A model generated the notes under the pieces. That model saw only the letters and a list, made by a program, of their open reading frames with translations. It was not told where the DNA came from and made no database searches. From Paenibacillus sp. URB8-2 (GTDB lineage: Bacteria; Bacillota; Bacilli; Paenibacillales; Paenibacillaceae), in NCBI RefSeq assembly GCF_013393385.1, contig NZ_AP023239.1, forward strand, positions 62,001-126,000: a stretch of 64,000 nt of DNA, read 5' to 3'. This document shows, piece after piece, positions 39,363-61,434 of the stretch. Every line of letters starts with the position of its first letter. The stretch's first letter is position 1. The position numbers and the translations under genes are program-made.

Positions 39363-39464
39363 CAAGAAAGAAACGGTTCCGCCATCCTTTTGGAGACGAT
39401 GCCCGTTCTAGTTGAAATATTAGACTAAACGATAAGCGCGTAGCTTATAAGTTCTTATATTAAA
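39363..39464 (+). repeat. Degenerate copy of the double-hairpin repeat (locus 1)
   Basis: Aligns with the 99-bp unit at 44.3 kb: AAGAAAGAAACGG start, hairpin I (AACGG/CCGTT with inner CATC/GATG), then GAAATATTAG, inner hairpin ATAAGC-GCGT-A-GCTTAT and a closing TTCTTATATT. Many substitutions, but the outer pairing of hairpin I and the inner hairpin are kept. Same orientation as the 44.3-kb array. Confidence 0.75.
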
Positions 39465-39487
39465 ATAAAAACCCCTCGCCGGGGTTA
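39465..39487 (-). terminator. Terminator of the first NlpC/P60 gene
   Basis: On minus: AACCCC-GGCGA-GGGGTT followed by TTTATTTT, directly next to the repeat. Confidence 0.8.
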
Positions 39488-39516
39488 AATCCGGGAAGGG
39501 GTCCTATAGGGCAGTA

Positions 39517-40008
39517 TTACTGCACATCATCATTGTCTTCAGAATCAACGGCTACGGATTGATAAGCGCTGGAGCCCATCACCCGTTTGGCGCCGACAAA
39601 CCGGCTGACATAATAACTGTCGCTCAGGGAAGTGACGGTAACGCCTTTCGAAGAGGAAGCATGGGCGAACTTTCCGGAGCCGATATAGATGCCGACATGG
39701 GAAATGCCTTTTCCGGAAGTGTTAAAGAATACAAGATCGCCGGCTCTCAGATCGCTGCGGGACACGGCATCTCCCATTTTGAACTGGGAACCCGACTGAT
39801 GCGGCAGATCGATGCCCATCTTATCGAACACGTACATGGTGAATCCGGAACAATCGAATCCGCTTGTGCTCGTGCCGCCGGATACGTATTTGGTTCCGAT
39901 AGCGCCGTCAATCACTTTATCCATTTTCGAATCGGCAAATGCGCTGCCTGCTCCGAGTGTGAGAACGATGGAAAAGCTGAGGAATGCTGCCGCCAACTTC
40001 TTCTTCAA
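39517..40008 (-). CDS. NlpC/P60 endopeptidase (c-di-AMP riboswitch controlled), copy 1
   Basis: Secreted peptidoglycan hydrolase cutting D-Glu/meso-DAP bonds. 163 residues. Signal peptide (cleavage after AFA, residue 25), then a bare NlpC/P60 domain with nucleophile Cys53 in FDCSGFT, His104 in SHVGIY and third residue His116. No LysM or SH3 domain. C-terminal acidic tail. TTG start at 40008, AAGGAG about 9 bases upstream. Paralogue of the next gene; both lie behind the same class of riboswitch. Confidence 0.93.
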   Translation of the reverse strand: MKKKLAAAFLSFSIVLTLGAGSAFADSKMDKVIDGAIGTKYVSGGTSTSGFDCSGFTMYVFDKMGIDLPHQSGSQFKMGDAVSRSDLRAGDLVFFNTSGKGISHVGIYIGSGKFAHASSSKGVTVTSLSDSYYVSRFVGAKRVMGSSAYQSVAVDSEDNDDVQ

Positions 40009-40019
40009 AAGATTTGACT

Positions 40020-40160
40020 CCTTCCAAATGCCTGCGAGGTTAGCTTAAGGATTCGGTAGAAGGTCCCCTATGACCCCTCTCTTGAACAGGAGGTCAATTC
40101 ACCCAAAGATGGTTCCCCCGCTTCCCTGATGGTCAGGGAACTCGGCACATACTGTATAGT
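40020..40160 (-). ncRNA. c-di-AMP riboswitch (ydaO-yuaA) upstream of NlpC/P60 copy 1
   Basis: Reading on minus: GCGGGGGAACCA, then GGGTGAATT, then GTCATAGGGGACC, CCGAATCC, and AAGCTAACCTCGCAGGCAT. These are the conserved blocks of the ydaO-yuaA family in the right order. It ends about 12 bases before the start codon. Binding of c-di-AMP usually turns such genes off. A minus-strand TATAAT (complement of 40167-40172) fits a transcript start near 40160. Confidence 0.93.
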
Positions 40161-40458
40161 GTCCGGATTATAGTGGGTAGATCATGACAAAATTATCGTC
40201 AAAATGTTAATAATCATTACAAAAATGTTACTATAAACTCATTGCGCTTATTGTAACAAACCTTTTGTTGGTTGGCAATCACTTTTAACATAGTAAAATT
40301 CGATTTTGTAGCGCTTACATTTGTGAATTCACTTAGAAACACTGGATAAAAATCGTGTTTTTATGCTAAAAATTTTTTTTGGCGTTGTTTTTTGCAAAAG
40401 CTGGTTCAAGCCGCCGAAATAGGTGTATAGCTAAACTATATACAGAAAAAAGGAAAAA

Positions 40459-40491
40459 CCCGGAAATGATTAGCGAGATCATGTTCCGGGC
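40459..40491 (-). terminator. Terminator of NlpC/P60 copy 2
   Basis: On minus CCCGGAAC-ATGATC... / ...TTCCGGG followed by TTTTTCC. The remaining gap 40173-40458 is AT-rich with no gene. Confidence 0.82.
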
Positions 40492-40501
40492 AAGAGATTA
40501 A

Positions 40502-40984
40502 TCAATCGTAAGCCACGGCTTGGTATGCGTTTGTGCTCATGACACGTTTGGCGCCGACATAACGGTTGGCCCAATAGGACTGGCTAAGCGAGCTGATGGT
40601 CACGCCGCGTGAAGAAGAGGATTGCGCGAATTTGCCGTTGCCGACATAAATGCCGACATGGGAAACGCCGTTTCCGAGCGTATTGAAGAATACTAGATCT
40701 CCTGAGCGCAGTTTGCTGCGCGATATGGAAGTTCCTACTTTGAATTGCGCTTTGGATGTACGAGGAAGGGTAAGTCCTACTTTTTTGAAAACGTATTTGG
40801 TAAATCCGGAACAATCGAACCCGGCTGTGCTCATTCCACCGGTTTTATATGAGGTTCCCAAAGTTTTTGCAATAACAGTGTCCATTTTCGAATCTGCGAA
40901 AGCGCTTCCTGACCCCAGAGTGAAAACCATCACAAGGCCTATCGCAGCGGCTGCGAGTTTTTTCTTGATATGTTGACCTTTCAA
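40502..40984 (-). CDS. NlpC/P60 endopeptidase (c-di-AMP riboswitch controlled), copy 2
   Basis: 160 residues, close paralogue of copy 1 (shared GSAFADSKMD, DCSGFT, SHVGIY, VGAKRVM). Signal peptide to about residue 30, then only the catalytic domain: Cys58, His109 and a third residue that is Gln121 here instead of His116. TTG start at 40984 with GGAAGGGG about 10 bases upstream. Each copy has its own riboswitch and terminator, so they are separately transcribed; tandem duplication with the regulatory RNA is the simplest origin. Confidence 0.93.
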   Translation of the reverse strand: MKGQHIKKKLAAAAIGLVMVFTLGSGSAFADSKMDTVIAKTLGTSYKTGGMSTAGFDCSGFTKYVFKKVGLTLPRTSKAQFKVGTSISRSKLRSGDLVFFNTLGNGVSHVGIYVGNGKFAQSSSSRGVTISSLSQSYWANRYVGAKRVMSTNAYQAVAYD

Positions 40985-40994
40985 AGCTTGTGTT

Positions 40995-41125
40995 CCCCTT
41001 CCAATGCCTGCGTGGTTAGCTTAAGGATTCGGTTTGAAGGTTCCCTATGACCTCTTTGTTACAAGATCAATTCACCCAAAAAATGGTTCCCCCGCTCCCC
41101 GGTGCCCGGGAATTTGGCTAGTTAT
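40995..41125 (-). ncRNA. c-di-AMP riboswitch (ydaO-yuaA) upstream of NlpC/P60 copy 2
   Basis: Same blocks as the first: GCGGGGGAACCA, GGGTGAATT, GTCATAGGGAACC, CCGAATCC, AAGCTAACCACGCAGGCAT. Loops differ from copy 1 (for example the stem loops around TTGATCTTGTAAC), while the core is almost identical. Confidence 0.93.
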
Positions 41126-41288
41126 GCACCAGAACAATCGACTTGATTCATCATCATACGACAAGATAACAAAATAGTTTTAAAAGATTACAAACTTGTC
41201 ACCTCAACACAAGCCTCATTGTATCAGACGATTTGGGGTTTGGCAAATTTAATTTAGCGGACGAAATATTTGCCAATATAAAAATAAA

Positions 41289-41329
41289 AAAGAGTTCAGA
41301 TTCCTGTCACGGAATTTGAACTCTTTTCG
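41289..41329 (-). terminator. Terminator of the 41.4-kb membrane protein gene
   Basis: AAAAGAGTTCA-GATTCC / GGAATT-TGAACTCTTTT stem with T-rich sequence on minus. The gap 41126-41288 upstream shows nothing else beyond AT-rich DNA that should hold the promoter of NlpC copy 2. Confidence 0.85.
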
Positions 41330-41361
41330 CCTGTTATGCATAAATGATAGGGTGTTTCTAA

Positions 41362-42192
41362 TTATGAATCCTTCGTTTTGCTGCGCCATAGATGATATTG
41401 CGCCGACAATCCCCACATATCGAATAAAGTGGAAGGGAGAGGCGCAAGCTGCCTAATGAAGAGCGCGGGCAGTCCGGGACTGAGAAACCCCGTCACCGCA
41501 GATACAAGAAAGATCAAGAGCCCCCCTAACCCGAACAGAATCCGCAGCGCCGCGGAGGGCAAGAAGCAGCGCATTGCGGTCAGTAGCGAAGCAAGTATTC
41601 CGGTGCCGCCTGTGTAACCGAACTGCATATATAGCAGGATCAAGCGAATGATAAACACGTAAAGCAGCCATGCGAGAATATACGGAAGAATCTGCAGCAG
41701 CAGCCCCGGCTCCCAGTAGGATGACAGAATGAGTCTGTATCCCTTCGGCAGAAGCCAGTATAGGGGAAGAAGGGTCAGAACCCATTCGGCGGCGCTGAAG
41801 AGCAGAACGGGCAGCCCGTACTTTTTCATGCCGGGAAAAAAGAACAGCCCGCGTTCACCCCGGCTCTCCTGATGCAACTCATGCAGCAGCCCGGCTCGGA
41901 TGAACGGCGTAGCCAGCAGGCGCACGCCCGCCAGAATAAGCAGTGTCCACAACCAACGCCGCACATCGGGTTCGGAAGACAGGCTGAGCTGGGCATCGAT
42001 ATAATACAGCAGCCTGCCTGCTGCACTGCCGCCGGCATTCTCGGAAGGGTAACGCAGCAGCGCGGGAACAACAGCCGACCTTACAAAGCGGTACAGAAAG
42101 TAGCCCCAGAGCAGCCGGTAGATAAAGAGCAGAATCAGTATATAGAGCTGTTCCTTGATGCTGCCCCAGCCGCGGATTATCCATTTTCTCAT
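41362..42192 (-). CDS. Multi-pass membrane protein of unknown function
   Basis: About 276 residues with five or six hydrophobic segments: near residues 14-32, 80-100, 120-145, 165-190 and 215-250. The loop between the first two holds a charged region. I do not recognise a family. ATG 42192 is chosen (GAGG 7 bases upstream); GTG 42201 abuts that site. It starts a few bases after the M1 peptidase stop, so it is probably cotranscribed and may assist that secreted enzyme, but this is inference. Confidence 0.75.
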   Translation of the reverse strand: MRKWIIRGWGSIKEQLYILILLFIYRLLWGYFLYRFVRSAVVPALLRYPSENAGGSAAGRLLYYIDAQLSLSSEPDVRRWLWTLLILAGVRLLATPFIRAGLLHELHQESRGERGLFFFPGMKKYGLPVLLFSAAEWVLTLLPLYWLLPKGYRLILSSYWEPGLLLQILPYILAWLLYVFIIRLILLYMQFGYTGGTGILASLLTAMRCFLPSAALRILFGLGGLLIFLVSAVTGFLSPGLPALFIRQLAPLPSTLFDMWGLSAQYHLWRSKTKDS

Positions 42193-42202
42193 TCGATTCA
42201 CC

Positions 42203-44197
42203 TCACCAGACGAAAATGCCGAGCACAGTTTCGATCGCGTTTGTCAGGCTTAGCGTCCAGCGGGAAACGAGGGCCGAGGGGAGAGCCGCTTTTCTGAAGT
42301 TGTTGATATGCTTGTTCTCCAGCAGGACTTCGTGACCCGGGTCCACCTCGGCCGAAACAAGAGGAGCCGCAGAGGAGAGCCGGAACGAAGTTTTCCCTCC
42401 CTGGCCATCCCAGACTTTATGCAGCGTGTGGCCGTCGGCGAAGGTGAACTTGACGCTCACGCCGGAATACAGGCTGCCCTTATTGGCGACGGTTGTCAGC
42501 GACTCGTAGACGCCGCTTTTACTTTTGCTTACAGTAATATCCTCAACGGAGAAATCGGGAGCGCCTCCGCCGTATACGTAACGGTCGAAGTAATCCTGCC
42601 ACGATTTTTTGGTCACCTTTTCCACAATTTTTTGAAAATCGGCGGTGCCCGGGTGACGGAAACGATATTTGCGGGCATAAGAGGACATAATGGAATCCAT
42701 TGTCTTGGCGCCGACCTGCCGTTCGATATCCTTGAGCACCAGCTTGCCCCGAATGTAGACGTTCTGGGTGTAGACATTCGCGCTGCCGTATTTCCAGGTA
42801 TCCAGAGTCAGCGGCTTGGGTTTCGTAACGAGACTGGCCTGTAGAGGAAGATTGGAGGCGAGCCCGTATTCCTGCTGCATCAGCCTGTCCTCGGCATAGG
42901 AGGTAAAGCTCTCGTCCAGCCAGGCTTCCTCGAACTCGTTGCTGGCCACCATTCCATAGAAGTACTGATGCCCGATTTCGTGAATCACCGTCCGTTCCAG
43001 CGAAGTATCGGCAGAGCCGCTCTCCGCGCCGAAGGCGGTGATTAAGGTGGGATACTCCATGCCTCCCGCTCCATTGCCCGCTTTGGGCGGAACGACGATG
43101 GACAGCGTGGTATACGGATAGGGGCCGTACCATTTACTGAAAGCGTTCAGCGCAGCCTCGGCGGCCTGGAAATAGCGCTCCTCCAGATTTTTATGCAGGG
43201 GGTCCAGATACAGCTTGATCCGAACGCCGGGCACTTCCGCCGAGGAGTAGGCTTTTTCCGCATACACAAAGTCCGGAGAAGCGGCCCAGGCGAAATCATG
43301 CACGTCATCGGCATAAAATTGATATATTTTTCGTCCCTCTGCAACTTTGGCGTTCCTAACGGGAAAACCGGTTGCAGCCACGGTATAATTCGCGGGAACG
43401 GAAATGGCCACGCTGTATATCCCGAAATCGCTGTAAAATTCGGAGGTGCCGTGGTACTGGTGCAAATTCCAGCCTTCTTCCCCCCTGCCCCGCGCCCCTG
43501 CGGGCTCGTAGACGCTCAGCTTCGGAAACCACTGCCCTGCCATGACAAAATCGCCGGATTCCCCCATGCGGGCAAATATTTTCGGCAGACGCACTTCAAA
43601 CCGCAGCTTGACCGTAACGCTTTCTCCGCCGTTCACCGGCTGCGGCAGATGGATCTTGATCAGGGTCTTGTCTTCCGGGTTGCCGTCGTCGGGCTGGACG
43701 TACTGCATCCGGTGCATCAGGGAGACGCCGTCGGTCGTTCGCACATCGGTCAGCGTTATCGATCCGAATCCGTCCTGGGGCATGCTGTCGCTGCGCAGCT
43801 TGCCGCCGGATTCTTTCATGAAGGTCGTGCTGTCTGATGCAAAGGCATTCGGGTACAGGTGGAAGTACAGATCGCTCACCGGGTTCTTGCCGGGATGGGT
43901 CCACGTTACCGTCTCGGCGGCGGTCAGGGTGCTTGTGCCCGGATCGAGCTGCACGCTGATGTGGTACTCCGCCACTCTCCGGCTGAGAGCCGGGGCGGAG
44001 TTGGCGGCCGGAGGAACGGGCATAGCGGGTTTGCCTGCCTGTTCCTGGCGGGGACTGGCCGGGGACTTGGCCGTTTCCGGAGCGGCGGTATAGTGGGAGA
44101 CCGGGGAAGATCCGGATAGCGCCCATATTCCTCCGCCCAGCAGACAGAGGGCGGTCAGGGCGGCGAAGAGATAAGTCGTACGGAATCGTCGCTTCAT
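42203..44197 (-). CDS. M1-family metallopeptidase, membrane-anchored
   Basis: 664 residues. N-terminal membrane segment (TTYLFAALTALCLLGG), a Pro/Ala-rich linker to about residue 75, the M1 beta-domain, and the thermolysin-like catalytic domain: exopeptidase-type GGMEYPT (379-385), zinc motif His406-Glu-Ile-Gly-His410 and Glu429 (HEXXH-18-E spacing exact). A second hydrophobic stretch at the C-terminus (WTLSLTNAIETVLGIFVW) may be an anchor. Probably an extracytoplasmic aminopeptidase. Followed by the membrane protein gene. Confidence 0.92.
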   Translation of the reverse strand: MKRRFRTTYLFAALTALCLLGGGIWALSGSSPVSHYTAAPETAKSPASPRQEQAGKPAMPVPPAANSAPALSRRVAEYHISVQLDPGTSTLTAAETVTWTHPGKNPVSDLYFHLYPNAFASDSTTFMKESGGKLRSDSMPQDGFGSITLTDVRTTDGVSLMHRMQYVQPDDGNPEDKTLIKIHLPQPVNGGESVTVKLRFEVRLPKIFARMGESGDFVMAGQWFPKLSVYEPAGARGRGEEGWNLHQYHGTSEFYSDFGIYSVAISVPANYTVAATGFPVRNAKVAEGRKIYQFYADDVHDFAWAASPDFVYAEKAYSSAEVPGVRIKLYLDPLHKNLEERYFQAAEAALNAFSKWYGPYPYTTLSIVVPPKAGNGAGGMEYPTLITAFGAESGSADTSLERTVIHEIGHQYFYGMVASNEFEEAWLDESFTSYAEDRLMQQEYGLASNLPLQASLVTKPKPLTLDTWKYGSANVYTQNVYIRGKLVLKDIERQVGAKTMDSIMSSYARKYRFRHPGTADFQKIVEKVTKKSWQDYFDRYVYGGGAPDFSVEDITVSKSKSGVYESLTTVANKGSLYSGVSVKFTFADGHTLHKVWDGQGGKTSFRLSSAAPLVSAEVDPGHEVLLENKHINNFRKAALPSALVSRWTLSLTNAIETVLGIFVW

Positions 44198-44278
44198 ACT
44201 GTAATTCCTCCCGTTGACAAGCTTCTACGGGATGTATATGTTGGCATTCGCCGTATTATTAGCTAAAATTAAATTATT

Positions 44279-44588
44279 CAAGAAGAAACGACTTCGCCGT
44301 CCTTTTAGAGACGGTACCGTTTCTCGTAGAAATATAAGACAAAATAATAAGCGCACAGCTTATACATTCTTATATTTCAAGAAGAAACGGCTTCGCCGTC
44401 CTTTTAGGGACGGTACCGTTTCTCGTAGAAATATAAGTCAAAATGATAAGCGCACAGCTTATACATTCTTATATTTCAAGAAGAAACGACTTCGCCGTCC
44501 TTTTAGGGACGGTACCGTTTCTCGTAGAAATATAAGACAAAATAATAAGCGCACAGCTTATACATTCTTATATTTCAAGAAGAAACGT
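44279..44588 (+). repeat. Tandem array, three 99-bp units plus a partial fourth (locus 2)
   Basis: Unit boundaries (the CAAGAAGAAACG start) fall at 44279, 44378, 44477 and 44576, an exact 99-bp period. Each unit has hairpin I (AAACGG..GCCGTCC-TTTTAG-GGACGGT.CCGTTT), then hairpin II (GAAATATAAG / CTTATATTTC) enclosing hairpin III (ATAAGC-GCAC-A-GCTTAT). Units differ at only a few positions (for example ACGAC versus ACGGC). It fills the gap between the M1 peptidase and ywhD; no gene is supported there. Confidence 0.95.
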
Positions 44589-44652
44589 CTGACAGCGTTC
44601 TTGAAGGACGCCTATAAACCATTAATTTATATACCAGGGAAGGGAGTGCGGC

Positions 44653-45159
44653 ATGGACAACAAGCAGCCGGATGGCAAGAAGCAGATTGCTTTGAATATT
44701 GTGAACGCCAAAAGCAAGCATAAAGGATTCGGAGCGGGTTCGATCGAACTGAACAACGTGTCGCCTGTAATTATCGACGGAGGCGAAGCGGTCATCGACA
44801 TTGGCGCCATGCACGCCAAGAGCAAGGTGGAGAAGGGGATCAAGTTCTCCATGAACCGCGAGGATGTGCAAGACGGCAGACAGGTCTGGGTGGTCTGGGT
44901 AGCCGTTGAACGCACGCAGGAAGGCCAGCATTACGCAGGGTTGACCGCATGCGAGATGTGGATTGACAGCGCGGCGAAGCGCGGCTGGAAGATCCTTGCG
45001 GATCATGTGAACAAGCTGGACTCAGCGCTTAAGCGGCGAATTGTTGTCGAGGGGCTCGGCGCGCAGGAGAAAGCGGCGCTGAAGTCGCTGCTCATCTCGC
45101 ATAACGCGGACTGGTGGAACGCGTCGCCCGAGGAACTGAAGCAGGCCCTCGAAGGCTGA
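44653..45159 (+). CDS. ywhD: YwhD family protein
   Basis: 168 residues, cytoplasmic. Matches B. subtilis YwhD in order: KHKGFGAGSIELNNVSPVI, IGAMHAKSKVEKGIKF, TACEMWID, ILADHVNKLDSALKR. No biochemical function is known. B. subtilis ywhD is next to the class A PBP gene pbpG; here a class A PBP lies 3 kb away, so the linkage is partly kept. ATG 44653 with GGGAAGGGAG upstream. Confidence 0.88.
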   Translation: MDNKQPDGKKQIALNIVNAKSKHKGFGAGSIELNNVSPVIIDGGEAVIDIGAMHAKSKVEKGIKFSMNREDVQDGRQVWVVWVAVERTQEGQHYAGLTACEMWIDSAAKRGWKILADHVNKLDSALKRRIVVEGLGAQEKAALKSLLISHNADWWNASPEELKQALEG

Positions 45160-45228
45160 ATACGGCGGTAAGATCTTAACCTTGTGCGGATATGAAGAAC
45201 CGTTACACGCGAAAAAAGTACACGCGAA

Positions 45229-45278
45229 AAAAGGCTTCGCCTTTCCTTGCTTACAAGGAAGAGCGAAGCCTTTTATAT
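45229..45278 (+). terminator. Terminator after ywhD
   Basis: AAAAGGCTTCGC / GCGAAGCCTTTT stem with inner TTCCTTG / CAAGGAA, then TATATAT. It lies between converging genes and may serve both. Confidence 0.9.
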
Positions 45279-45300
45279 ATAGACATCGGGACAGCCGTTT

Positions 45301-45774
45301 CTACCGGCCGTTTGCGAACTTTCGCTTAAGCTGGCTGACTCTGGCCTGGCTGATGCCGAGCATCACGGCAAGTTCCTTCTGATTGGCGGAGGGATACTCC
45401 TGCATCGTTTGTTCCAGCCGATCGCGAAGTTCATCCGATTTGGTTCTCTTTTTGCCTGCGTAAAGATCCGAAGAGGGAACATGAATCTCCTCATCCGGCT
45501 CCTGTTGCGTTGCCTGGTCATCCAGACCGGGGTTCACCAGCTCCTGAAGGCAGCGGCCGCAGATGAATTGATCCTTGAAATAGATGACATTGTCCAGACT
45601 CCTGCAAAAGGTACATTCCGTTGAAGTGTATTTCCGCAATACAATAATGTGATCGTCCAGAATGAAAAACTCGATAGGATCCCCAATGTCGATATTGCGC
45701 GTCATACGGATTTCTACGGGAACCACAATGCGTCCAAGATTGTCTAAACTTCGGATCATGCCGGTATCCTTCAT
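45301..45774 (-). CDS. AbrB-like regulator with zinc ribbon and C-terminal HTH
   Basis: 157 residues in three parts. Residues 1-50: an AbrB/SpoVT swapped-hairpin domain (GMIRSLDNLGRIVVPVEIR, landmarks LGRIVVP). Residues 53-80: two Cys pairs, CTFC and CGRC, a likely zinc ribbon. Residues 115-157: a helix-turn-helix (KELAVMLGISQARVSQLKRK). B. subtilis AbrB is only 96 residues and lacks the last two parts, so this is a multi-DNA-binding fusion. ATG with GAGGG upstream. Targets unknown; a transition-state role is inferred only from the first domain. Confidence 0.85.
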   Translation of the reverse strand: MKDTGMIRSLDNLGRIVVPVEIRMTRNIDIGDPIEFFILDDHIIVLRKYTSTECTFCRSLDNVIYFKDQFICGRCLQELVNPGLDDQATQQEPDEEIHVPSSDLYAGKKRTKSDELRDRLEQTMQEYPSANQKELAVMLGISQARVSQLKRKFANGR

Positions 45775-45838
45775 CCCATGTCCCTCATTTATATCTTCAG
45801 ATTTGGTGGTATTTAATTATTATAACAGTAAATGTATT

Positions 45839-47041
45839 TTAAGATAAAGGGGAAAGCATGTACGTAAAATGAATCTTCTGCCCTTCAGTGAAGGATGTCC
45901 ACTCGAAAGAAAGCAGATCTCCCGAGCGTCCTGTATAGGCCAGTTTGTCGCCGGGATAATCGATTTCGGTGTCGGGATACGCCTCGAGCCAGGCTTGATC
46001 GGCCGCGCTAAGCAGCTGCTTGTAGAGCTCGACGGTCTGGCCGCTGCGGCGATCGATCAGAATGAGCGTACCTTTCTGAAAGGGCCGGACCAGCATAAAG
46101 TCGGTATCCACGGCTTCTACCGCGAAGGCATCATTGATGCCGGTAAGCTCCAGCAAGTTATACGTTTTATAAATATGGCCGTCCGGATTGACAAGCATGA
46201 CTGTCTGCCCGTCGACCATGACCACATTGCCCTGAAAAGCAAAGATGTCCCGTTTCATTCCGAGCATGCGGGGGTTCCAGTAATGGGTCTTTGCCTGACG
46301 TACCAGGGAACCGCCTGAAACAAGCGCGCGCCAGCGGGTGTTATTAATATGCGGCTCACCGCTGGCATTCTCGATTTCGACGGCATAACTGGCAGGGTTG
46401 ATCCGGCGCGCGGACAGGCTCGCCCAGTCGAGATCGGCAACCCGGATTACACCTGCCCGGATCGGCACAGAGCCGCTCGGTCCGCTGTACAGGACGCCAT
46501 GCTCCCGGTTCAGCCAGAACAGCTCTCGTCCCGCTGACGTCATCATATATTTTGGTGTATAAGCCACGGAGAACCGATTGCCGCCGTTCCAGGCGACGGG
46601 AAGGCCGAAAGCCTTGGAAAACAGCTTATCCGGCACATACGTCACTCCGTTCCGGACCAGCGTCTCAGCGCCCAGCATAATCGTCTTCCCTGCCGCAGTA
46701 TAGACCTTCGGCTGGCCGACCTTCAGGCTGACGGCCTGATACAGCCCCGTCACCTCAAGGCTGGATTTGCCCGGATTCCACAGCAGCTGAAGATCCAGAG
46801 AAGAAGAGAGATCTTTCAAAGGGACGTACGTGGCGCCGTTCTCCTGAAAGCCGGCATGCTCCAGGGCCAGCCCGTTCAGAACGGGTGCTTTTTGGGCCGT
46901 CGACGGTGCAGCTGCCGATGCAGGGGACGGAGCGGCGGCGGATGCCCCCTCGGCCGGCGCAGCGGCAAGAAGCAATGCGGCAAGAGAGGAAGCGGCGAAC
47001 AGGGCGGCGGTTCTTCTGGAGACTTTGCTTTGGACAATCAT
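45839..47041 (-). CDS. Secreted protein with copper-amine-oxidase N-like (stalk) domain
   Basis: 400 residues. Signal peptide (AALFAASSLAALLLAAAPAEGASA, cleavage near 33), an Ala/Pro/Ser-rich linker, then two beta-rich repeats of the Cu_amine_oxidN1 type (GATYVPLKDLSSSLDLQLLW and GVTYVPDKLFSKAFGLPVAW), common in extracellular Paenibacillus proteins. The rest, about 220 residues, looks like a beta-propeller-like or beta-rich domain with no recognised motif. Probably a cell-surface protein; function unknown. Confidence 0.8.
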   Translation of the reverse strand: MIVQSKVSRRTAALFAASSLAALLLAAAPAEGASAAAPSPASAAAPSTAQKAPVLNGLALEHAGFQENGATYVPLKDLSSSLDLQLLWNPGKSSLEVTGLYQAVSLKVGQPKVYTAAGKTIMLGAETLVRNGVTYVPDKLFSKAFGLPVAWNGGNRFSVAYTPKYMMTSAGRELFWLNREHGVLYSGPSGSVPIRAGVIRVADLDWASLSARRINPASYAVEIENASGEPHINNTRWRALVSGGSLVRQAKTHYWNPRMLGMKRDIFAFQGNVVMVDGQTVMLVNPDGHIYKTYNLLELTGINDAFAVEAVDTDFMLVRPFQKGTLILIDRRSGQTVELYKQLLSAADQAWLEAYPDTEIDYPGDKLAYTGRSGDLLSFEWTSFTEGQKIHFTYMLSPLS

Positions 47042-47118
47042 GACTTACCCTCTTTCTTTCTAATAAATGGAAAATCTTCACTCTATATAGTGACGAATGA
47101 GGAATAAAAAAGTTGCAG

Positions 47119-47162
47119 AATGAAAAGCCTCTCCTTGGGTTCACATAAAAGGAGAGGCTTCT
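47119..47162 (-). terminator. Terminator of the mpg gene
   Basis: AAGCCTCTCCTT / AAGGAGAGGCTT perfect 12-bp stem; TTTTC on minus. Confidence 0.85.
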
Positions 47163-47206
47163 ATTGGGGTCTATTCACTTTTACCCAAATAACTGAAGAA
47201 GAAACG

Positions 47207-47893: not shown

Positions 47894-47933
47894 GTATAGA
47901 GGCCACCTCTCTTACAAAAGCGGATAGAAGCCG

Positions 47934-48043
47934 TTCTTCTTGAAATATCAGAAAGTATAAGCTTCGCGCTTATCCTTAACCTGATATTTTTACGAGAAAC
48001 GGATGCCTTCCTCTTCCAGAGGACGGCGAAGCCGTTTCTTCTT
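47934..48043 (-). repeat. Double-hairpin repeat, variant B (locus 3)
   Basis: In reverse orientation to the 44.3-kb array. Reading on minus it begins AAGAAGAAACGGCTTCGCCG as in the array, but hairpin II is AAATATCAG / CTGATATTT instead of AAATATAAG / CTTATATTT, and hairpin I has a different inner stem (GCC/GGC, CCTCT/AGAGG). Lies between mpg and the PBP gene. No other feature in 47894-48096. Confidence 0.92.
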
Positions 48044-48096
48044 GGCTTGATGTGTCTTATCGTACCGGACCTTTACCCGCCGTGCAAGGGCAGGAA

Positions 48097-51900: not shown

Positions 51901-51929
51901 TTGAATTGGCCCGATGAACTGATTATAGT
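51901..51929 (+). promoter_or_regulatory. Promoter of ywiB-argS
   Basis: TTGAAT, 17-bp spacer, TATAGT, about 60 bp before ywiB. Confidence 0.65.
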
Positions 51930-51991
51930 AATACAATGGGAAAGATGACGGCCCGCGCGGAAGCGGAGCCGCGAAGAATGGAGGGGCGAGG

Positions 51992-52435: not shown

Positions 52436-54117
52436 AACAAAGTCAAAATCCGCTTGCCCTGATCAATGAAAGGGTGAAAGAAGCCATCGCCGATGCGGTT
52501 GTCGCAGCCGGTTTGGTTCAGCGGGAAGAGCTTCCGAGCATTGTGCTGGAAGTGCCGAAGGACAAAGCTCATGGCGATCTGGCGACAAACGCCGCCATGC
52601 AGCTGACCAAGATCGCGAAGCGCAATCCGCGCCAGATCGCCGAGGCGATTGTGGAGCATCTGGATTTGAGCAAGGCCTCGATTGAAAAAGCGGAAATCGC
52701 CGGCCCGGGATTCATTAACTTTACGCTGTCCAAGTCTTACCTGTATCCGGTCATCGCTCTTTCCCTGGAGCAGGGGGATGATTACGGCCGCACCGACGCC
52801 GGTCAGGGACAGAAGGTTGAAGTCGAGTTCGTCAGCGCCAACCCGACGGGCAGCCTGCACCTTGGCCATGCCCGTGGAGCAGCCGTAGGTGATGCGCTAT
52901 GTAACGTACTGGATTTCGCCGGATACGAGGTTACGCGCGAGTATTATATCAACGACGCAGGCAACCAGGTCGCCAACCTGAGCAAGTCGATCGAGGCCCG
53001 GTATTTGCAGGAGCTGGGCCAGTCGGCGGAAATGCCGGAGGATGGCTATTTCGGCGAAGACATCAAGGGCTTTGCCAAAGAGCTTGTTGCCGAAAAAGGC
53101 GATTCGCTGCTGGAGATGACGCCCGGAGACCGGGCCGCCTTTTTCCGCACTTACGGGCTGGAGAAGGAATTGGACAAAATCAAGCGCGACCTCGGACGAT
53201 TCCGCGTGCCTTTTGACATTTGGTTCAGCGAAACCTCACTGTACGAGACCGGGGAAGTGCTGCGCGCGCTGGACGAGCTGCGGGACCGCGGCGAAGTATA
53301 CGAGCTGGACGGCGCCACCTGGCTGCAGACCACCAAGTACGGCGACGACAAGGACCGCGTGCTGATCAAGAACGACGGCACTTATACGTACCTTACGCCG
53401 GATATCGCCTACCACAGCGATAAATACGGCCGTGGATACGACAAAATGATCAATATTTGGGGCGCCGACCATCACGGATACATTCCGCGGATGAAAGCGG
53501 CGATGGCTTCGCTGGGCAACGATCCGGACAAGCTGGTCGTACTGATCGCCCAAATGGTCAGCCTGTTCCAGGACGGTGAGAAGGTGAAAATGTCCAAGCG
53601 GACCGGCAAAGCCGTAACGATGGAGGATTTGATGGATGAAGTCGGCGTCGACGCGATCCGCTATTTCTTTACTATGCGTAGCATGGATTCCCATCTCGAC
53701 TTCGACATGGATCTCGCCGTTTCGACCTCAAACGAAAATCCGGTATTCTATGTACAATACGCGCATGCGCGTATTTGCAGCGTATTCCGTCAAGCTGAGG
53801 AGCAGGGTATTACCCTGCCGGAATTGGCCGGAATCGATTACTCGAAGCTGACGGCGGAGCACGAATACGCCCTGCTGCGCAAAGTCGGCGAGCTTCCTTT
53901 CGAGGTTGCCCTGGCCGCCGAGGGTTACGCGCCGCACCGCCTGGTCCGCTATGTGTACGAGCTGGCGGCGCTCTTCCACAGCTATTACAAAGCGGAGCGC
54001 GTCATCACCGAAGACGCCGCCCAGACGCTCGCGCGGCTCGCGCTCCTTGGCGCCGTTCGCCAATCCATCGCGAACGTGCTGCGCCTTGTTGGCGTGACGG
54101 CGCCGGAACGGATGTAG
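52432..54117 (+). CDS. argS: Arginyl-tRNA synthetase
   Basis: Class I synthetase for tRNA-Arg. 561 residues. HIGH motif as [12 protein letters not shown] near residue 142, KMSKS variant KMSKRTGKA near 388, N-terminal Add1-type tRNA-binding domain and C-terminal anticodon domain (DALR type, [13 protein letters not shown]). The ATG at 52432 has AGGAGG 10 bases upstream; the longer in-frame reading upstream overlaps ywiB and is unlikely. Confidence 0.97.
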
Positions 54118-54168
54118 GCGCCTTATACCCAATACGCGCATCCAGCCGCGTTTAACCGCACGCAAGCC

Positions 54169-54197
54169 AGAAGCCGCCCCCCGGGGCGGCTTCTTTA
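54169..54197 (+). terminator. Terminator between argS and the S8 protease gene
   Basis: AGAAGCCGCCCC / GGGGCGGCTTCT perfect 12-bp stem with TT after it, between converging genes. Confidence 0.88.
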
Positions 54198-54231
54198 TAA
54201 TGCATTTATAAGCTGAATGCCGACTCGGCCT

Positions 54232-55422
54232 TCAACCCGGCATTCGCGGCGCCGACCCAGCGCCTGTCGGCCTTTTTGCCCGCGCCCGCAGCAGGCGCAT
54301 CGCGTCTACCGTACCGCCGCCCAGCGTAACACGGCGCTGGCCCTTTCGCAGCAGCAGCGGCGATGAGGTGCGGCGCAGCGCCAGCTTCAGCTCCCGGGGC
54401 GTAATCCCCGGGCGCAGAGCGAGCAGCAGGGCGGCGGCTCCCGTCACATGGGAGGTTGCCATGGAGGTGCCGCTCATTTCTTTGTAGCCTTCCTTCGGCC
54501 AACAGGAAGTGACATTTTCCCCCGGGCCGTATACGTCGATATAGGAACCGTGGTTGCTGAAGGAGGCGACGCGGCGCTTGCGGTCGATAGCGCCAACGGC
54601 AATGGCCTCGCTGTACCGGGCCGGGTAGTCTCCCCCCCGTTTCCCGTCATTGCCCGACGAGGCAATAATCGGAATGCCGGCACGGTAGGCTTTGACGACA
54701 ACGTCATGCAGCGCATTGCTGCGGCTTTTCATTCCGAAGCTCATGTTAATGAGATCGATCCGGTTCTGAACGCACCAATCGATGGCGAGCACGATATCGG
54801 ACACAAAAGCCGAGCCGGTATGATCGAAGGCTTTGACCGGATAAATCAGGGAACGCGGCGCCACCCCCATCATGCCCCGCATGCCGCCAGCGGCGGCGAG
54901 CGTTCCGGCGATATGCGTGCCGTGCCCGTTATCATCAATAGGAAGCATGCCGCGATGCAACAGATTCACTCCAGAGGCGAGCGAACTCTTAAGATCGGGA
55001 TGGAGGAAATCCGCTCCGGTGTCAATGACGCCGATTTTAATATGAACGCCGGTCGATCTCGACCATGCCTGGGGAGCGCGAATCGCCCTGACGCCCCAAG
55101 GCAGAGAGTGCGAATTCTTATTCGCGGCAGGAGACAGGGTATGTGAATGGATTTGAATGCGCAAATCCTCTTCGACGGCGACCGCTTCGGCATATCTTTG
55201 CATCAGCTTCACGGCTCCGGCCGCCGGCACAAAAAAGGCCCGGATCAGTGGAGACACTTTGACCCTGCGCAGTCCGGGCCGGCGTGACTTCAGGAATTTC
55301 CACTGCGACAGCGCTCCGGCATACTGACGGGGATCGTGAAAAGTAACGATTCGCCGTTCAGCGTTTCCGGGAGCGGCCGCTGCTTCTTCAAGCACCAGTT
55401 TCCAAAATTCGTGAAAGTCCAT
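54232..55422 (-). CDS. Subtilisin-like serine protease (S8), apparently without signal peptide
   Basis: 396 residues. Catalytic triad complete: Asp134 (GVIDTGADFLHPDL), His167 (DDNGHGTHIAG) and Ser320 (MSGTSMATSH), with the oxyanion Asn in SSGNDG. Residues 1-105 form an inhibitor_I9-like propeptide region (AVAVEEDLRIQIH before the mature start). The N-terminus MDFHEFWKLVLEEAAAA is polar, with no hydrophobic core, so export is not by a classical signal; it could be an intracellular subtilisin or use another route. ATG at the complement of 55420-55422. Confidence 0.9.
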   Translation of the reverse strand: MDFHEFWKLVLEEAAAAPGNAERRIVTFHDPRQYAGALSQWKFLKSRRPGLRRVKVSPLIRAFFVPAAGAVKLMQRYAEAVAVEEDLRIQIHSHTLSPAANKNSHSLPWGVRAIRAPQAWSRSTGVHIKIGVIDTGADFLHPDLKSSLASGVNLLHRGMLPIDDNGHGTHIAGTLAAAGGMRGMMGVAPRSLIYPVKAFDHTGSAFVSDIVLAIDWCVQNRIDLINMSFGMKSRSNALHDVVVKAYRAGIPIIASSGNDGKRGGDYPARYSEAIAVGAIDRKRRVASFSNHGSYIDVYGPGENVTSCWPKEGYKEMSGTSMATSHVTGAAALLLALRPGITPRELKLALRRTSSPLLLRKGQRRVTLGGGTVDAMRLLRARAKRPTGAGSAPRMPG

Positions 55423-55524
55423 TGTTCTGCAATCCCCTCCTGCTGCCGTGCTTCCATATTTTATGAGGAGGGGGAGAAGCCCGCGTGGGAACTTGCCTTT
55501 TTTTGCTGAAATAGGCCGTCTGTC

Positions 55525-55645
55525 GTGTCAAAAGAGAGTCCAACACATAAAATAGTGTAAGAGGGAAGGCCCTCTTTGAAACAACGCCGAGCTAATCCTT
55601 GGCGTGGATACAGTCAGGTGCGGAGGAGCTTCCTCCGCCTTTTTC
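55525..55645 (+). ncRNA. Candidate small RNA (promoter, two hairpins, terminator)
   Basis: GTGTCA (55525-55530), 17 bp, TAAAAT (55548-55553) would start a transcript near 55560. It then shows GAGGG-AAGG-CCCTC, CGCCGAG-CTAATC-CTTGGCG and a terminator GCGGAGGA-GCT-TCCTCCGC followed by CTTTTTC (55620-55645). No open frame. No Rfam family that I can recognise matches. It may instead be a leftover of a lost gene, since nothing transcribed in this direction lies upstream. Confidence 0.4.
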
Positions 55646-55785
55646 TTAAAATATAAGAATTTATAAGCTGCGCCCTTATTTATGGGCTTTATATTCGATT
55701 AGAAACGGATGCCTGCAGGCGATACGCAGTATCGCTCGCTTCGGAAGCATAAGCTCCGGAGAGGATGGCGAAGCCGTTTCTTTTT
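55641..55785 (-). repeat. Double-hairpin repeat with enlarged hairpin I (locus 4a)
   Basis: Same order of parts as the other copies on the minus strand: AAACGG..CCGTTT outer stem, AT-rich hairpin II (AATATAAG / CTTTATATT) enclosing ATAAG/CTTAT. The loop of hairpin I carries about 40 extra bases (TGCAGGCGATACGC... to ...AAGCTCCGG) that themselves contain inverted pairs such as GCGATAC/GTATCGC. Confidence 0.8.
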
Positions 55786-55887
55786 GAAATATCAGAAAGT
55801 ATAAGCTTCGCGCTTATCCTTAACCTGATATTTTTACGAGAAACGGATGCCTTCCTCTTCCAGAGGACGGCGAAGCCGTTTCTTCTT
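55778..55887 (-). repeat. Double-hairpin repeat, variant B (locus 4b)
   Basis: Nearly identical to the 47.9-kb copy, directly fused to copy 4a and sharing its AAGCCGTTTCTT junction. Same orientation. The rest of 55888-56152 shows no gene. Confidence 0.93.
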
Positions 55888-56152
55888 ATCTCCGCACATC
55901 TTCGCCGTCCGGTTGACAGCCACTTCGGAATCGGCGGTATTTTTTCGAGGCTCCGTCCACCCGGTTTTTCTCGGGGAAACTTCAATAAACGGTTGATACC
56001 GGCCTTCCGAAATCAGGGGCATCCGTATGCGCCAATTTGACTTGCATTTTGTTCCCAAATAGGTTTTACTTAGGTTTGTCAATGAATGTTAACGAAATAA
56101 CGACTGAATAAAGCCATAGCGTGAACAATGCGTGAGAGGAAGTGTCCCGAAA

Positions 56153-56719
56153 GTGAGTACGCCACTTAATTTGAAGCTGGATCCTGAAAAAATCAAAGAA
56201 ATGCCGATGGTGGACTTGGCGTTTCTGATTCTGAAAGCGGCCAATACGCCGTTCTATTACCGTGACCTGATGGCCGAGGTGGCCAAGCTGCGCGGAATGT
56301 CCGAAGAAGAGATCAACGATACGATTGCCCAGTTATATACCGAAATTAATATCGACGGGCGTTTTGCCTGTGTCGGAACCAACCTGTGGGGTTTGAAGCG
56401 CTGGTATCCGCTTGAGCGCTCCGACGATCCGATTGGCAACTCCAAGCGTCCGCGCATCATTAATGATGAAGACGATGATTTGGACGATGACGATTTCACC
56501 GAGGAGGAAGACTCCTACTCCGGCGATGACGAAGACTTCGACGTGATCGACGAGGACCGCGACGATCTGTATTCCGACGATGACAGCGATGAGGAAGTCG
56601 ACGAAGAAGTCGTTATAGACGATGAGGATATAGACGAAGAGGAAATTGAAGACGATGAGGAATCCGAGGAAGAGGCCGACGATGAAGCTTCGGATGATGA
56701 AAACGACGACAAATTTTAA
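56153..56719 (+). CDS. rpoE: RNA polymerase delta subunit (RpoE)
   Basis: Firmicutes-specific subunit that speeds RNAP recycling. 188 residues. N-terminal HARE-HTH-like domain (residues 1-90: MVDLAFLILKAANTPFYYRDLM, landmarks MVDLAFLI and YTEINIDGRF, WGLKRWYP), then about 95 residues almost purely Asp/Glu, as in B. subtilis. GTG 56153 is chosen: GAGAGGA lies about 12 bases upstream; the in-frame ATG at 56132 has no site. Adjacent to pyrG as in B. subtilis. Confidence 0.95.
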   Translation: MSTPLNLKLDPEKIKEMPMVDLAFLILKAANTPFYYRDLMAEVAKLRGMSEEEINDTIAQLYTEINIDGRFACVGTNLWGLKRWYPLERSDDPIGNSKRPRIINDEDDDLDDDDFTEEEDSYSGDDEDFDVIDEDRDDLYSDDDSDEEVDEEVVIDDEDIDEEEIEDDEESEEEADDEASDDENDDKF

Positions 56720-56820
56720 GACGCTTCCGTCCAATAATTCTTCCTTGACATCAACAAAGCCGACAGAGTAAACTATTTGATGGGCTTATGATGAATTTAA
56801 ATTCTATATTTTCAAAAATA

Positions 56821-56857
56821 AAAAGTGCCCCCGGTTCTGCGGGTGTCACTTTTTTGT
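56821..56857 (+). terminator. Terminator after rpoE
   Basis: AAAAGTG..CCCG / CGGG..CACTTTTT stem and T run. The rest of 56720-57035 holds no gene, and I see no pyrG attenuator of the GGGC-start type. Confidence 0.8.
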
Positions 56858-57023
56858 TTTTTAGATATCATTTTGATGCCGGATAACGCTGTTATGACGC
56901 AAGTCGGACCAACGTGAGGGCTTCCCCGAGAGATTTAGGCGATTTTGAATTTCTCCGTTTTGCCGCTCTGAAAACGGGTTACGATAACATCATATATCGC
57001 CTGATTTTACGGAAATTATTTAG

Positions 57024-58643
<1,620 letters not shown>

Positions 58644-58685
58644 GATCGGCTGGCGTTTTCCATATCCGGATCTCCGGAGATTAAG

Positions 58686-58736
58686 GGGGTGTCCCAAAAG
58701 CCATGAAATGGCTACTTGGGACACCCCTCGTTTTTT
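58686..58736 (+). terminator. Terminator-like hairpin at the left IS end
   Basis: GGGGTGTCCCA / TGGGACACCCC stem around a second hairpin AGCCATgaaATGGCT, followed by CTCGTTTTTT. It would end pyrG transcripts and keep them out of the transposase gene. Confidence 0.8.
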
Positions 58737-58940
58737 GAGTAGGATTTAGGTAAGCACTTGGTGTGGACGCTCCGCGAACGGACCGTTGTTCCAATCGCTG
58801 TTGTGTCCAGATTTTTTTCATTCCCCTTAGCGGTGAAAATCCGGACCCAAAGGCGACCGCTACCGCTTTTCCACAATCGTTCCGTCCCCTCCGCTGCTTT
58901 CAGCTGTAACTGTTACTAAAATTCTTTCTTGAAATCACAA

Positions 58941-59004
58941 AAAGAAATCGCCCTTTGGTAAAATGGAAGTACCACCCACCATCTCTAAAAGGAGCGATTT
59001 CTTT
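58941..59004 (+). promoter_or_regulatory. Hairpin sequestering the transposase ribosome-binding site
   Basis: 58941-58956 (AAAGAAATCGCCCTTT) pairs with 58988-59004 with one bulged A (58993), a 16-bp stem. The 3' arm contains AAAGGAGC, the Shine-Dalgarno sequence, and the first bases of the TTG start. A transcript started upstream would fold and block translation; one that starts inside (a TAAAAT lies at 58959-58964) would lack the 5' arm. Confidence 0.75.
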
Positions 59005-60562
59005 GTACATTCAATATACCATGGACCAACTTTTCCTGCCAATGGATTTAGAAGAAGACATTCCAGAAAATCACCTCGTTCGTGTCATCAACACTGCCGT
59101 AAACCGCCTGGACGACTCGATCTTTGATGCCGCTTATCCCGGTGGTGGCCGCGACAGCTACCACCCCAAAATGCTCACCAAAGTCACTATTTATGCCTAC
59201 ACCCAGCGCATCTACTCTTCCCGGCAAATGGCCAAAGCTGTGCGGGAGAACATTCCCTTCATGTGGCTGGCCGGACGACAACGCCCGGACTTCCGCACCC
59301 TTAACCGCTTCCGTTCTCAGCGGATGAAGGATGTCCTCGAAACCGTATTTACCGCCGTTCTTCAATTTCTGGCGGACGAAAAATACATCTCCCTGGAGCA
59401 TTACTTTGTCGATGGCACCAAGATCGAGGCCAATGCCAATCGCTACACGTTTGTTTGGGGCAAAGCGGTCAGCAAACATAAGACCAAACTGCAAGAGAAC
59501 GTACACGCGCTGTTTGCCACCATCGAAGCTGCAGAGAACCAAGAAGAAGCGAAACACCAAGGCAACGATCTCGCTGAACTTGGCGAGTCCTCAGCGATTA
59601 GCGCCGAGAAACTCGAACAAGTGACCCAGGAACTCGAAGCCCGGCTTCTGAACAAGCCTAAAGATAAACTCCTGAAGAAAGCGGTTCGTAAGCTTCGAAA
59701 AGACCTGCTTCCCCGGCTGCTGAAGTACGAACAGTACCAAGCGTTGCTCGGCGACCGGAATAGCTTTAGCAAGACCGACCCGGATGCGACCTTCATGCGA
59801 ATGAAGGAAGATCACATGCGAAACGGTCAACTCAAACCGGGATACAATGTTCAGATTGGGACCGAAAACCAGTTTATTTTAGCCTACAGTCTACACCCAA
59901 GACCGACCGATACCCGCTGCCTACAACCGCATATGGAAAAGGCAAGGCAGATGCTTGGCAAACTCCCACAGACGGTCATTGCAGATGCAGGCTACGGCAG
60001 TGAAGAAAACTACGCCTATTTGGAAAAGGAAGAGATTCAGGCTGTGGTGAAATACGGCAGCTACCATCAAGAGAAGAGTAAAGCCTGGAAAGAGAAGGTC
60101 GGAAGGATTGAGAACTGGGCGTATGACGAAGCCGAAGATACGTGGACCTGTCCGGCCGGACAAATGCTGCATTTCCGCAGAGAAAGCAAGGAAACCTTGG
60201 CAAGTGGGTATGAAATTCGCAAACGTCATTACCGAAGCCAAAACTGCGACGGTTGCCCACTGAAGGACCGTTGCACCAAAGCGGCAGGAAATCGGGAAGT
60301 GGCCGTCAGTCTGGAACGGCTAAGGTACCAGAAGCAGGCTAGGGAAATGTTGCGAAGTGAAGATGGCTATGCTTTGACGGTACGGCGAATGACGGAACCG
60401 GAAAGCGTATTTGGACAACTGAAGAACAACCGAGGGTTCCGGCGTTTTCTGCTTCGCGGCATGGAGAAAGTGACGCTTGAGGTCGGGTGGCTTTCACTTG
60501 CCCATAATGTGCTGAAGCAAGCCGCAGTGGACCAAAAACGCAAAGCAGCGATTCTCCAATAA
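59003..60562 (+). CDS. IS1182-family transposase
   Basis: About 519 residues, intact. N-terminal DUF772-type domain (FLPMDLEEDIPENHLVRVINTAV, GGGRDSYHPKMLTKVTIYAYTQ, FRTLNRFRS), the DDE-type catalytic core (YFVDGTKIEANANRYTFVWGK with Asp, VIADAGYGSEENYAYL with Asp, and a late Glu in TEPESVFGQLKNNRGFRRF), and a Cys cluster (CDGCPLKDRC). A Lys/Glu-rich coiled region separates the first two parts. TTG start at 59003, 8 bases after AAAGGAGC; longer in-frame readings upstream have no site. Expression is probably limited by the hairpin above. Confidence 0.92.
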   Translation: MYIQYTMDQLFLPMDLEEDIPENHLVRVINTAVNRLDDSIFDAAYPGGGRDSYHPKMLTKVTIYAYTQRIYSSRQMAKAVRENIPFMWLAGRQRPDFRTLNRFRSQRMKDVLETVFTAVLQFLADEKYISLEHYFVDGTKIEANANRYTFVWGKAVSKHKTKLQENVHALFATIEAAENQEEAKHQGNDLAELGESSAISAEKLEQVTQELEARLLNKPKDKLLKKAVRKLRKDLLPRLLKYEQYQALLGDRNSFSKTDPDATFMRMKEDHMRNGQLKPGYNVQIGTENQFILAYSLHPRPTDTRCLQPHMEKARQMLGKLPQTVIADAGYGSEENYAYLEKEEIQAVVKYGSYHQEKSKAWKEKVGRIENWAYDEAEDTWTCPAGQMLHFRRESKETLASGYEIRKRHYRSQNCDGCPLKDRCTKAAGNREVAVSLERLRYQKQAREMLRSEDGYALTVRRMTEPESVFGQLKNNRGFRRFLLRGMEKVTLEVGWLSLAHNVLKQAAVDQKRKAAILQ

Positions 60563-60600
60563 CGGGAGAATCACTGCTTTGCTGACTTTTTACGATTTTT
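60544..60600 (+). terminator. Terminator of the transposase gene
   Basis: AAAGCAGCGATTCTCC / GGGAGAATCACTGCTTT overlapping the stop codon, then TTTTTACG and TTTTTT. Confidence 0.75.
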
Positions 60601-60797
60601 TAGAATGAAGAAAGCTGTCTCTGACGTAGAAGAACTACTTATGGGACAGCTCCTTTTTTTAGGGGCTAAGGGGCCAGGCAATCCCTGAGTATGTTTAGGG
60701 TCGAGGCCGAACTTCGTTGAGTGGTCTTTCCACTTGGGGGCGGCAACTTGCATTTGTACTGTTTTATGACGTATAATTACGCATTTTTTACCATTTA

Positions 60798-60827
60798 GCA
60801 GGAGTTTCGTGGTCAAGCACGAATTAT
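60798..60827 (+). promoter_or_regulatory. Candidate sigma-H promoter of spo0F
   Basis: GCAGGAGTT at 60798-60806, 11-bp spacer, CACGAATTA at 60818-60826. This approximates the sigma-H pattern RnAGGAwww-N11/12-RnnGAATww, with mismatches. B. subtilis spo0F is known to be sigma-H driven. Confidence 0.4.
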
Positions 60828-60903
60828 AGTTCTTCGTATGGATTTATGCGAAGACCGTCGGACGCGGTAAGGTGGATCGGCCACATATCAGGGAGGGTTA
60901 CGA

Positions 60904-61296
60904 ATGGAAAAAAAGAAAAAGAAAGTATTGATCGTCGATGACCAAAACGGGATTCGAATCCTGCTTATGGAGGTTTTTAATAGCGAAGGCTACACGACTT
61001 TTCAAGCAGCTAACGGAAAAGCGGCTTTGGATATTGTGCGCAGCGACTGCCCCGATCTGGTTCTCCTCGACATGAAAATCCCGGGAATGGACGGACTGGA
61101 AATTTTAAAGCATATTAAAGAGATCAATACGGAGATCAAGGTAATCATGATGACGGCGTACGGTGAGCTGGACATGATCAAGGAAGCGACGAAGCTCGGA
61201 GCGCTTATGCATTTTACCAAGCCATTCGATATTGATGAAATGCGGGTGGCGGTCAATGTGCATTTACGTACAGGTTCTGTTGACCATTACAGTTAA
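60904..61296 (+). CDS. spo0F: Sporulation phosphorelay response regulator Spo0F
   Basis: Receives phosphate from sporulation kinases and passes it to Spo0B. 130 residues: a single receiver domain with no output domain. Acidic pocket Asp12-Asp13, phosphoacceptor Asp56 in [24 protein letters not shown] with conserved Thr, and the Lys in [10 protein letters not shown]. Matches B. subtilis Spo0F nearly line for line ([17 protein letters not shown]). ATG 60904 with GGGAGGG upstream. The following fbaA and murZ are also in B. subtilis order. Confidence 0.95.
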
Positions 61297-61301
61297 AGCT
61301 G

Positions 61302-61332
61302 GGGATTCTGCGATAAGCAGAGTCCCTTTTTT
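61302..61332 (+). terminator. Terminator after spo0F
   Basis: GGGATTCTGC-GATAA-GCAGAGTCCC followed by TTTTTT; the T run merges into the next repeat copy. Confidence 0.9.
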
Positions 61333-61434
61333 GAAATATCAGAAAGTATAAGCTTCGCGCTTATCCTAAACCTGATATTTTTACGAGAAACGGATGCCTT
61401 CCTCTTCCAGAGGACGGCGAAGCCGTTTCTTCTT
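61327..61434 (-). repeat. Double-hairpin repeat, variant B (locus 5)
   Basis: Almost identical to the 47.9- and 55.8-kb copies (one visible change, CCTAAACC for CCTTAACC). It begins inside the T run of the spo0F terminator. The stretch between it and the fbaA promoter shows no gene. Confidence 0.93.

Follow-up and report, generated by a model that had tools for sequence, protein, structure and literature searches.

The double-hairpin repeats of the 64-kb window (the whole stretch of DNA that was analysed) are not an artefact: they belong to a large family of small mobile elements that was active recently and follows two targeting rules in an unusual combination. In its own genome the element is mostly inserted 3′ of T-tracts, many of which belong to intrinsic terminators; its orientation relative to the tract is fixed, and it is biased towards the lagging-strand template. 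We consider it probable that the repeat is a non-autonomous element of ~100 bp with hairpins at its ends, moved in trans as single-stranded DNA to the 3′ side of T-tracts. The first-pass annotation described the repeat and missed both the terminator target and the replication-strand bias.

All eight units at five loci that had been described there, with their double-hairpin plan, are present in the window (Table 1); B copies run opposite to A copies. The remark that none lies in the first 39 kb holds for a model search of the window and is unremarkable, because the genome averages about one locus per 41 kb. The terminator abutting the degenerate unit passes the strict terminator test used below with a stem score of 12, and the inserted piece at 61.33 kb, judged by its empty site, is 61334-61435. 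Two c-di-AMP riboswitches (RF00379) lie on the - strand at window positions 40014-40157 and 40990-41129, each preceding one of two similar consecutive genes.

Table 1. Repeat units and associated features (window positions; the last two rows give G000 coordinates).
Feature	Position	Strand	Basis or locus
Degenerate A-like unit	39365..39462	+ (A orientation)	model match, 75.3 bits; fold z -1.4
Terminator (T-rich tract and hairpin) of a - strand gene, abutting the 39.4-kb unit	39463..39501	-	sequence
A-type unit 1, tandem array (period 99)	44280..44377	+	model match
A-type unit 2, tandem array	44379..44476	+	best model score, 116.2 bits
A-type unit 3, tandem array	44478..44575	+	model match; genome comparison
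Remnant of a further hairpin I, edge of the 44.3-kb array	44577..44612	+	sequence
Unit-end remnant (GAAGCCGTTCTTCTTG) immediately ahead of B unit	47927..47942	-	sequence
B-type unit, among 15 identical genome copies by model score	47943..48043	-	model match
Terminator hairpin (55620-55638) and T-rich tract ahead of double unit	55620..55648	+	sequence, flank list
Unit with longer hairpin I	55649..55785	-	model match; genome comparison
B-type unit, tandem with 55649..55785	55787..55887	-	model match; genome comparison
Terminator hairpin (61301-61326), six T, G, ahead of unit	61301..61333	+	sequence; G013/G033 empty site
B-type unit	61334..61434	-	model match; genome comparison
Copies split by the first IS110-family element	G000 375935, 1121047, 1581108, 4630909, 4868548, 5068014		L105, L118, L128, L180, L182, L188
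Copies split by the second IS110-family element	G000 2089624, 3279349		L134, L160

We use A orientation for the direction in which the A copies were originally read and T reading for the opposite one. A unit in the T reading consists of AAATATMAG, hairpin III, the closing arm of hairpin II and a short linker, after which come hairpin I (AGAAACGG...CCGTTTCT) and TCTTR. A-type units carry AAATATAAG and B-type units AAATATCAG; the inner parts of hairpin I are exchangeable, and one form is ~36 nt longer. Folding was computed for five units, in two cases for both strands, and six of the seven foldings lay far below shuffles (z -3.8 to -7.0); the 39.4-kb copy folded near chance (z -1.4, 18 of 200 shuffles equally good). 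No Rfam family matches the units at the gathering score, and the weak matches at a lax threshold are to eukaryotic families.

The exchange of an A-T for a C-G pair in hairpin II, proposed from the window, is real: among 114 distinct rows, 70 have A-T and 34 have C-G at this pair (19 antisense or partial rows were dropped from 146, leaving 127, of which 114 are distinct). Covariation above background is clear in one alignment and weak in another. In alignment A2, which was model-fitted to the structure and holds 146 rows from 98 of 119 stretches rather than all copies, the share of paired cells is 91.3%, double changes number 238 vs 37-66 in slid controls, and the covariation score is 0.183 vs at most 0.051, figures that include the 19 antisense or partial rows. 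The plain MAFFT alignment A1 has 85.4% of cells paired vs 40-49% in slides, 13 double changes vs 6-34, and a score of 0.081 vs at most 0.090 (the slide with 34 double changes). RNAalifold recovered only 4 pairs on A1 because the arms of hairpin I are misaligned there. Since neither double changes nor score on A1 rise above one slide, the covariation claim rests on the structure-fitted A2. Non-Watson-Crick cells on the A strand comprise 78 G-T and 117 A-C (30 of these in one doubtful column), so that there is no clear wobble preference on either strand.

A covariance model built from 39 copies was used to search the genome (150 candidates scored) and gave at least 148 copies at 135 loci on the element's own 5.58-Mb chromosome (E ≤0.01), where copies <300 bases apart were grouped into one locus and loci hold 1-3 units. 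One extra weak copy was found in 400 kb of evenly spread own-genome sequence, and an 18-base motif scan of the collection returned at least 119 stretches. Further copies were sought in related genomes and were found by BLAST in 30 of 36 genus relatives, two of these with a single match, as well as in three genomes from a second genus within the order, for a total of 34 of 60 genomes with the own genome included. When 45 of 80 listed records were run with the model at E ≤1e-4, a unit was present in 26 of the 32 records counted as Paenibacillus (one carries the name Bacillus sp. FJAT-28004) and in 0 of 13 records of other groups. The B unit had no match in phages or plasmids; A units match one plasmid record, of Paenibacillus polymyxa. 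A five-unit tandem array lies at 2218173-2218671 in the relative G012. Within a partial coverage of the literature on Paenibacillus and related topics, no title or abstract opening was found that describes the family.

The flanks of the 148 copies define the target. In the T reading, units mostly start immediately 3′ of a T-tract and mostly end in CGTTTCTTCTT, followed by G or A. A strict intrinsic terminator lies directly upstream of 76 of the 133 first units (those not behind another unit); the same rule is passed by 118 of 1208 control T-tracts, by 8 of 1500 random places and by none of the opposite element ends. The last 12 bases before the unit are T-rich in 108 of 133 first units and, by the rule used, not in the other 25. 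The strict test is failed by 57 first units; among 45 of these that were read by eye, many resemble terminators with longer loops. Fifteen units stand directly behind another unit. The unit's own end (hairpin I and TTTCTTCTT) is terminator-like, so that units could insert behind units and give tandem arrays. The edge bases of A and B units in the own genome are swapped: B units have a T-tract and G before them in 32/40 and A after them in 35/40, A units have A before in 28/53 and G after in 42/53.

Orientation follows replication. GC skew in the own genome is positive in 10/10 stretches below 2.75 Mb and negative in 10/10 above, which locates the origin close to coordinate 0 and the terminus around mid-chromosome. 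One orientation rule fits 122 of the 135 loci (cut at 2.86 Mb): the T reading points in the direction of fork movement, which makes the T-reading strand the lagging-strand template. The co-oriented background is 205 of 299 ORFs (≥150 aa, in 400 kb) and 60 of 95 predicted terminators; units with a strict terminator follow the rule in 74 of 76 cases (cut at 2.75 Mb), an odds ratio of 22 relative to terminators in general (p 1e-8). In the genome G033, 12/12 copies agree within 800 kb around coordinate 0, assuming an origin there as in the own genome, with which G033 is colinear near the origin. The bias is weaker in G012 (108/137 loci at the best-fitting split, 25/30 by local skew) and in G001 (39/48 copies at the best single cut, 22/30 by skew). 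This weaker bias of older copies counts against a strict rule.

Comparison with other genomes identified both empty and partly filled sites. At 61.33 kb G013 and G033 are empty, and the terminator and T-tract continue straight into the sequence beyond the repeat. At 55.6 kb both units are missing from G033, whereas G013 carries the first (55649..55785) and lacks the second; the 44.3-kb array has three units in the own genome, one in G013 and none in G033; and the B unit at 47.9 kb is missing from G033. Thirty further near-origin loci were compared with G033, the flanks being colinear in 24 and not in 6. Eleven of the 24 were judged to be clean empty sites; the remainder are common to both genomes (339853 is one example), have decayed in part or have diverged too far for a call. 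With 61.33 kb these make 12 clean comparisons, 8 of which fit an insert AAATAT...TTCTTR (7 uniquely, 1 tied), while the other four, including the A-type sites 341417 and 5470686, fit boundaries shifted by up to two bases. The 12 clean junctions are all free of visible target duplication. Fifteen identical copies of one unit occur at different places in the own genome, which points to recent movement. The median identity to the nearest neighbour is 97% for the 148 own-genome copies; it is 95% in G012 and 83.5% in G001 for the best 30 copies; copies are all decayed in G001 and fairly fresh in G012, and G033 has near-consensus B copies. Taken as sequence evidence, the empty sites, identical copies and copy-number differences show that the element moves and inserts precisely. 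Selection on structure or mobility had been offered as alternatives in the first-pass annotation; mobility is now well supported by these observations, and selection on a one-strand RNA is unsupported.

The element's terminal base is associated with the first base of the linker. In the own genome 118 of 136 such pairs are Watson-Crick (C-G 54, T-A 64, T-G 10, C-A 7, C-T 1), a fraction of 0.87 vs 0.03-0.54 at neighbouring linker positions, and the association is also present in the non-B copies alone (p 2e-5). The pair is Watson-Crick in 23/26 copies in G001 (p 0.014; neighbours 0.19-0.58) and in 25/29 in G012, where it hardly varies and a position two bases further along does equally well (0.90), so that G012 does not single out the terminal pair.

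Candidate enzymes were sought by six-frame profile search, absence meaning no match at E ≤0.001. Of the 24 repeat-bearing relatives 17 had a detected Y1 transposase, as did 3 of the 8 repeat-poor ones (p 0.12), a count that excludes G014 (four repeat matches, five Y1 matches); the seven repeat-bearing relatives in which Y1 was not detected include G012 and G001. All checked genomes with fresh copies, namely the own genome, G013 and G033, have Y1 genes. The own genome contains seven near-identical IS200-like elements (PF01797; L032-L038). By eye, all seven lie directly behind terminator T-tracts. The strand sense of six agrees with that of the repeats; the remaining one (2865348) is near the terminus, exactly between a terminator and a repeat.

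Neither a parent element nor a mobilizer gene emerged from the candidates tried. Comparison of IS200/IS605 ends with the repeat gave no parent match (36 Y1 loci searched with the model, ~10 read by eye), and the examined ends of the IS200/IS605-type elements in the own genome differ from those of the repeat. Weak model matches beside Y1 genes at L279 (G028) and L276 (G034) were considered as parents; positions 1150-2200 and 1130-2200, respectively, hold a terminator, one half of an old repeat, an IS with its usual ends and the other repeat half, an order that identifies an old repeat into which an IS200-like element has inserted. Repeats in two groups have long left flanks in common and were considered as autonomous parents; both groups proved to be IS110-family insertions (the second by eye). 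A mobilizer gene between two close repeats was also sought: the ORFs there look cellular and unrelated, apart from one IS110 transposase, and from names given by eye we take them to be unrelated cellular genes. Six repeat copies are split in hairpin II by one IS110-family element whose copies are at least 98% identical, and others by a second such element (Table 1), so that the repeats double as landing sites for two IS110-family elements.

By analogy with IS608 and its relatives we infer a single-stranded DNA intermediate and an HUH-type enzyme, and we conclude that the repeat probably works like a single-strand transposon, an origin from IS200/IS605 being a candidate only. Possibly, although this is on the unlikely side, the repeat descends as a PATE from an IS200/IS605 element and is moved in trans by the TnpA of that element, whether still resident or lost in recent times. 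The shared mode of insertion and kind of target with the IS200-like elements of the own genome argue for such a derivation, as do the presence of Y1 in every fresh-copy genome checked and the purely decayed copies of G001, which lacks a detected Y1. However, the IS200/IS605-type ends examined are unlike the repeat, the L279 and L276 matches are nested insertions, and Y1 goes undetected in 7/24 bearing relatives, including G012 with its fairly fresh copies; the association has p 0.12. Somewhat more doubtful is a new class of element that transposes as single-stranded DNA into terminator hairpins on the lagging-strand template through an enzyme beyond the Y1, RAYT and reverse-transcriptase families, perhaps host-encoded, and whose own 3′ end mimics a terminator and thereby generates tandems.

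Retro-insertion, in which a reverse transcriptase acting in trans would copy the element RNA into DNA at the T-tract in the manner of group IIC introns, appears improbable. The terminator target and lagging-strand preference are common to class C group II introns, and among 13 genomes RVT_1 has three genes in the own genome and 18 matches in G012; however, RVT_1 is absent (E ≤0.001) from the repeat-bearing G001, G016 and G033, the last with near-consensus B copies, which argues against a reverse transcriptase as mobilizer, and the window contains no group II intron match. We regard it as very improbable that the repeat is a structured RNA or secondary terminator under selection at gene ends, its copies spread by recombination: strong folding, the position behind terminators and the terminator-like end are consistent with such a role, whereas many sites are empty in relatives, orientation tracks replication beyond gene orientation, and a one-strand wobble preference is not clear. 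Least credible of all is a REPIN-type repeat mobilised by a RAYT (TnpA_REP), a link that the first-pass annotation had suggested. The repeat is indeed short, intergenic, hairpin-forming and present in many copies, but no RAYT above the NCBIfam cut-off was found in the own genome or in 35 relatives (22 of the genus), and the suggestion is unsupported.

In the single-strand transposition that we favour, the hairpin and T-tract of a terminator would be recognised while they are single-stranded in the lagging-strand template. A trans-acting enzyme would recognise both end hairpins, excise the element and join it 3′ of the T-tract, in the manner of IS200/IS605 TnpA. IS608 uses guide pairing, to which we liken the terminal pair of the repeat; pairing of the first linker base with the last element base may help to set the 3′ cut. 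Units would likewise insert behind units and build the tandem arrays. The element thus appears to read two genome signals, transcription terminators and the direction of replication, and reading both would let it settle where harm is small. Tandem self-targeting, the terminal base pair and the missing enzyme make the mechanism directly testable, and should Y1 enzymes turn out to play no part, the range of known routes to single-strand transposition would be extended.

We conclude that this high-copy family matches no known family that was found; the nearest are PATEs, REPINs, bcr1 and, with respect to target, group IIC introns. Group IIC introns insert directly behind intrinsic terminators and prefer the lagging strand. 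The repeat resembles them in its position behind intrinsic terminators (76/133 first units) and differs in its length of ~100 bp, in having no Rfam ribozyme match at gathering in the window and in the three repeat-bearing genomes in which no reverse transcriptase was found. The BOX elements of pneumococcus are modular, structured intergenic repeats with a variable number of units, properties shared by the repeat, whose sequence and build are different. With REP/REPIN sequences the repeat has in common hairpin formation, intergenic location and high copy number, whereas the lack of a RAYT over the cut-off, the two dissimilar hairpins per unit and the terminator target distinguish it. Unlike a classical MITE, it ends in AAATATMAG and TTCTTR, with no terminal inverted repeats and no duplication. 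IS200/IS605 elements are described as having end hairpins, no inverted repeats and no target duplication, and as inserting 3′ of a short target with use of the lagging-strand template (PMC7290912, PMC6006769). The repeat shares with these elements and with PATEs the end hairpins, the lack of inverted repeats and target duplication, the placement 3′ of a short target and the preference for the lagging-strand template, but no recognisable end sequence with the elements examined. By its published description, bcr1 is the nearest small repeat of a related group: it is reported as small, chromosomal, present in many copies and with mobile features, its mobilizer being unclear, and as specific to the B. 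cereus group with TTTAT motifs (PMC6542083). The repeat is likewise small, chromosomal, high in copy number and endowed with mobile features, and is set apart from that description by flanks that consist of T-tracts followed by varying bases instead of TTTAT.
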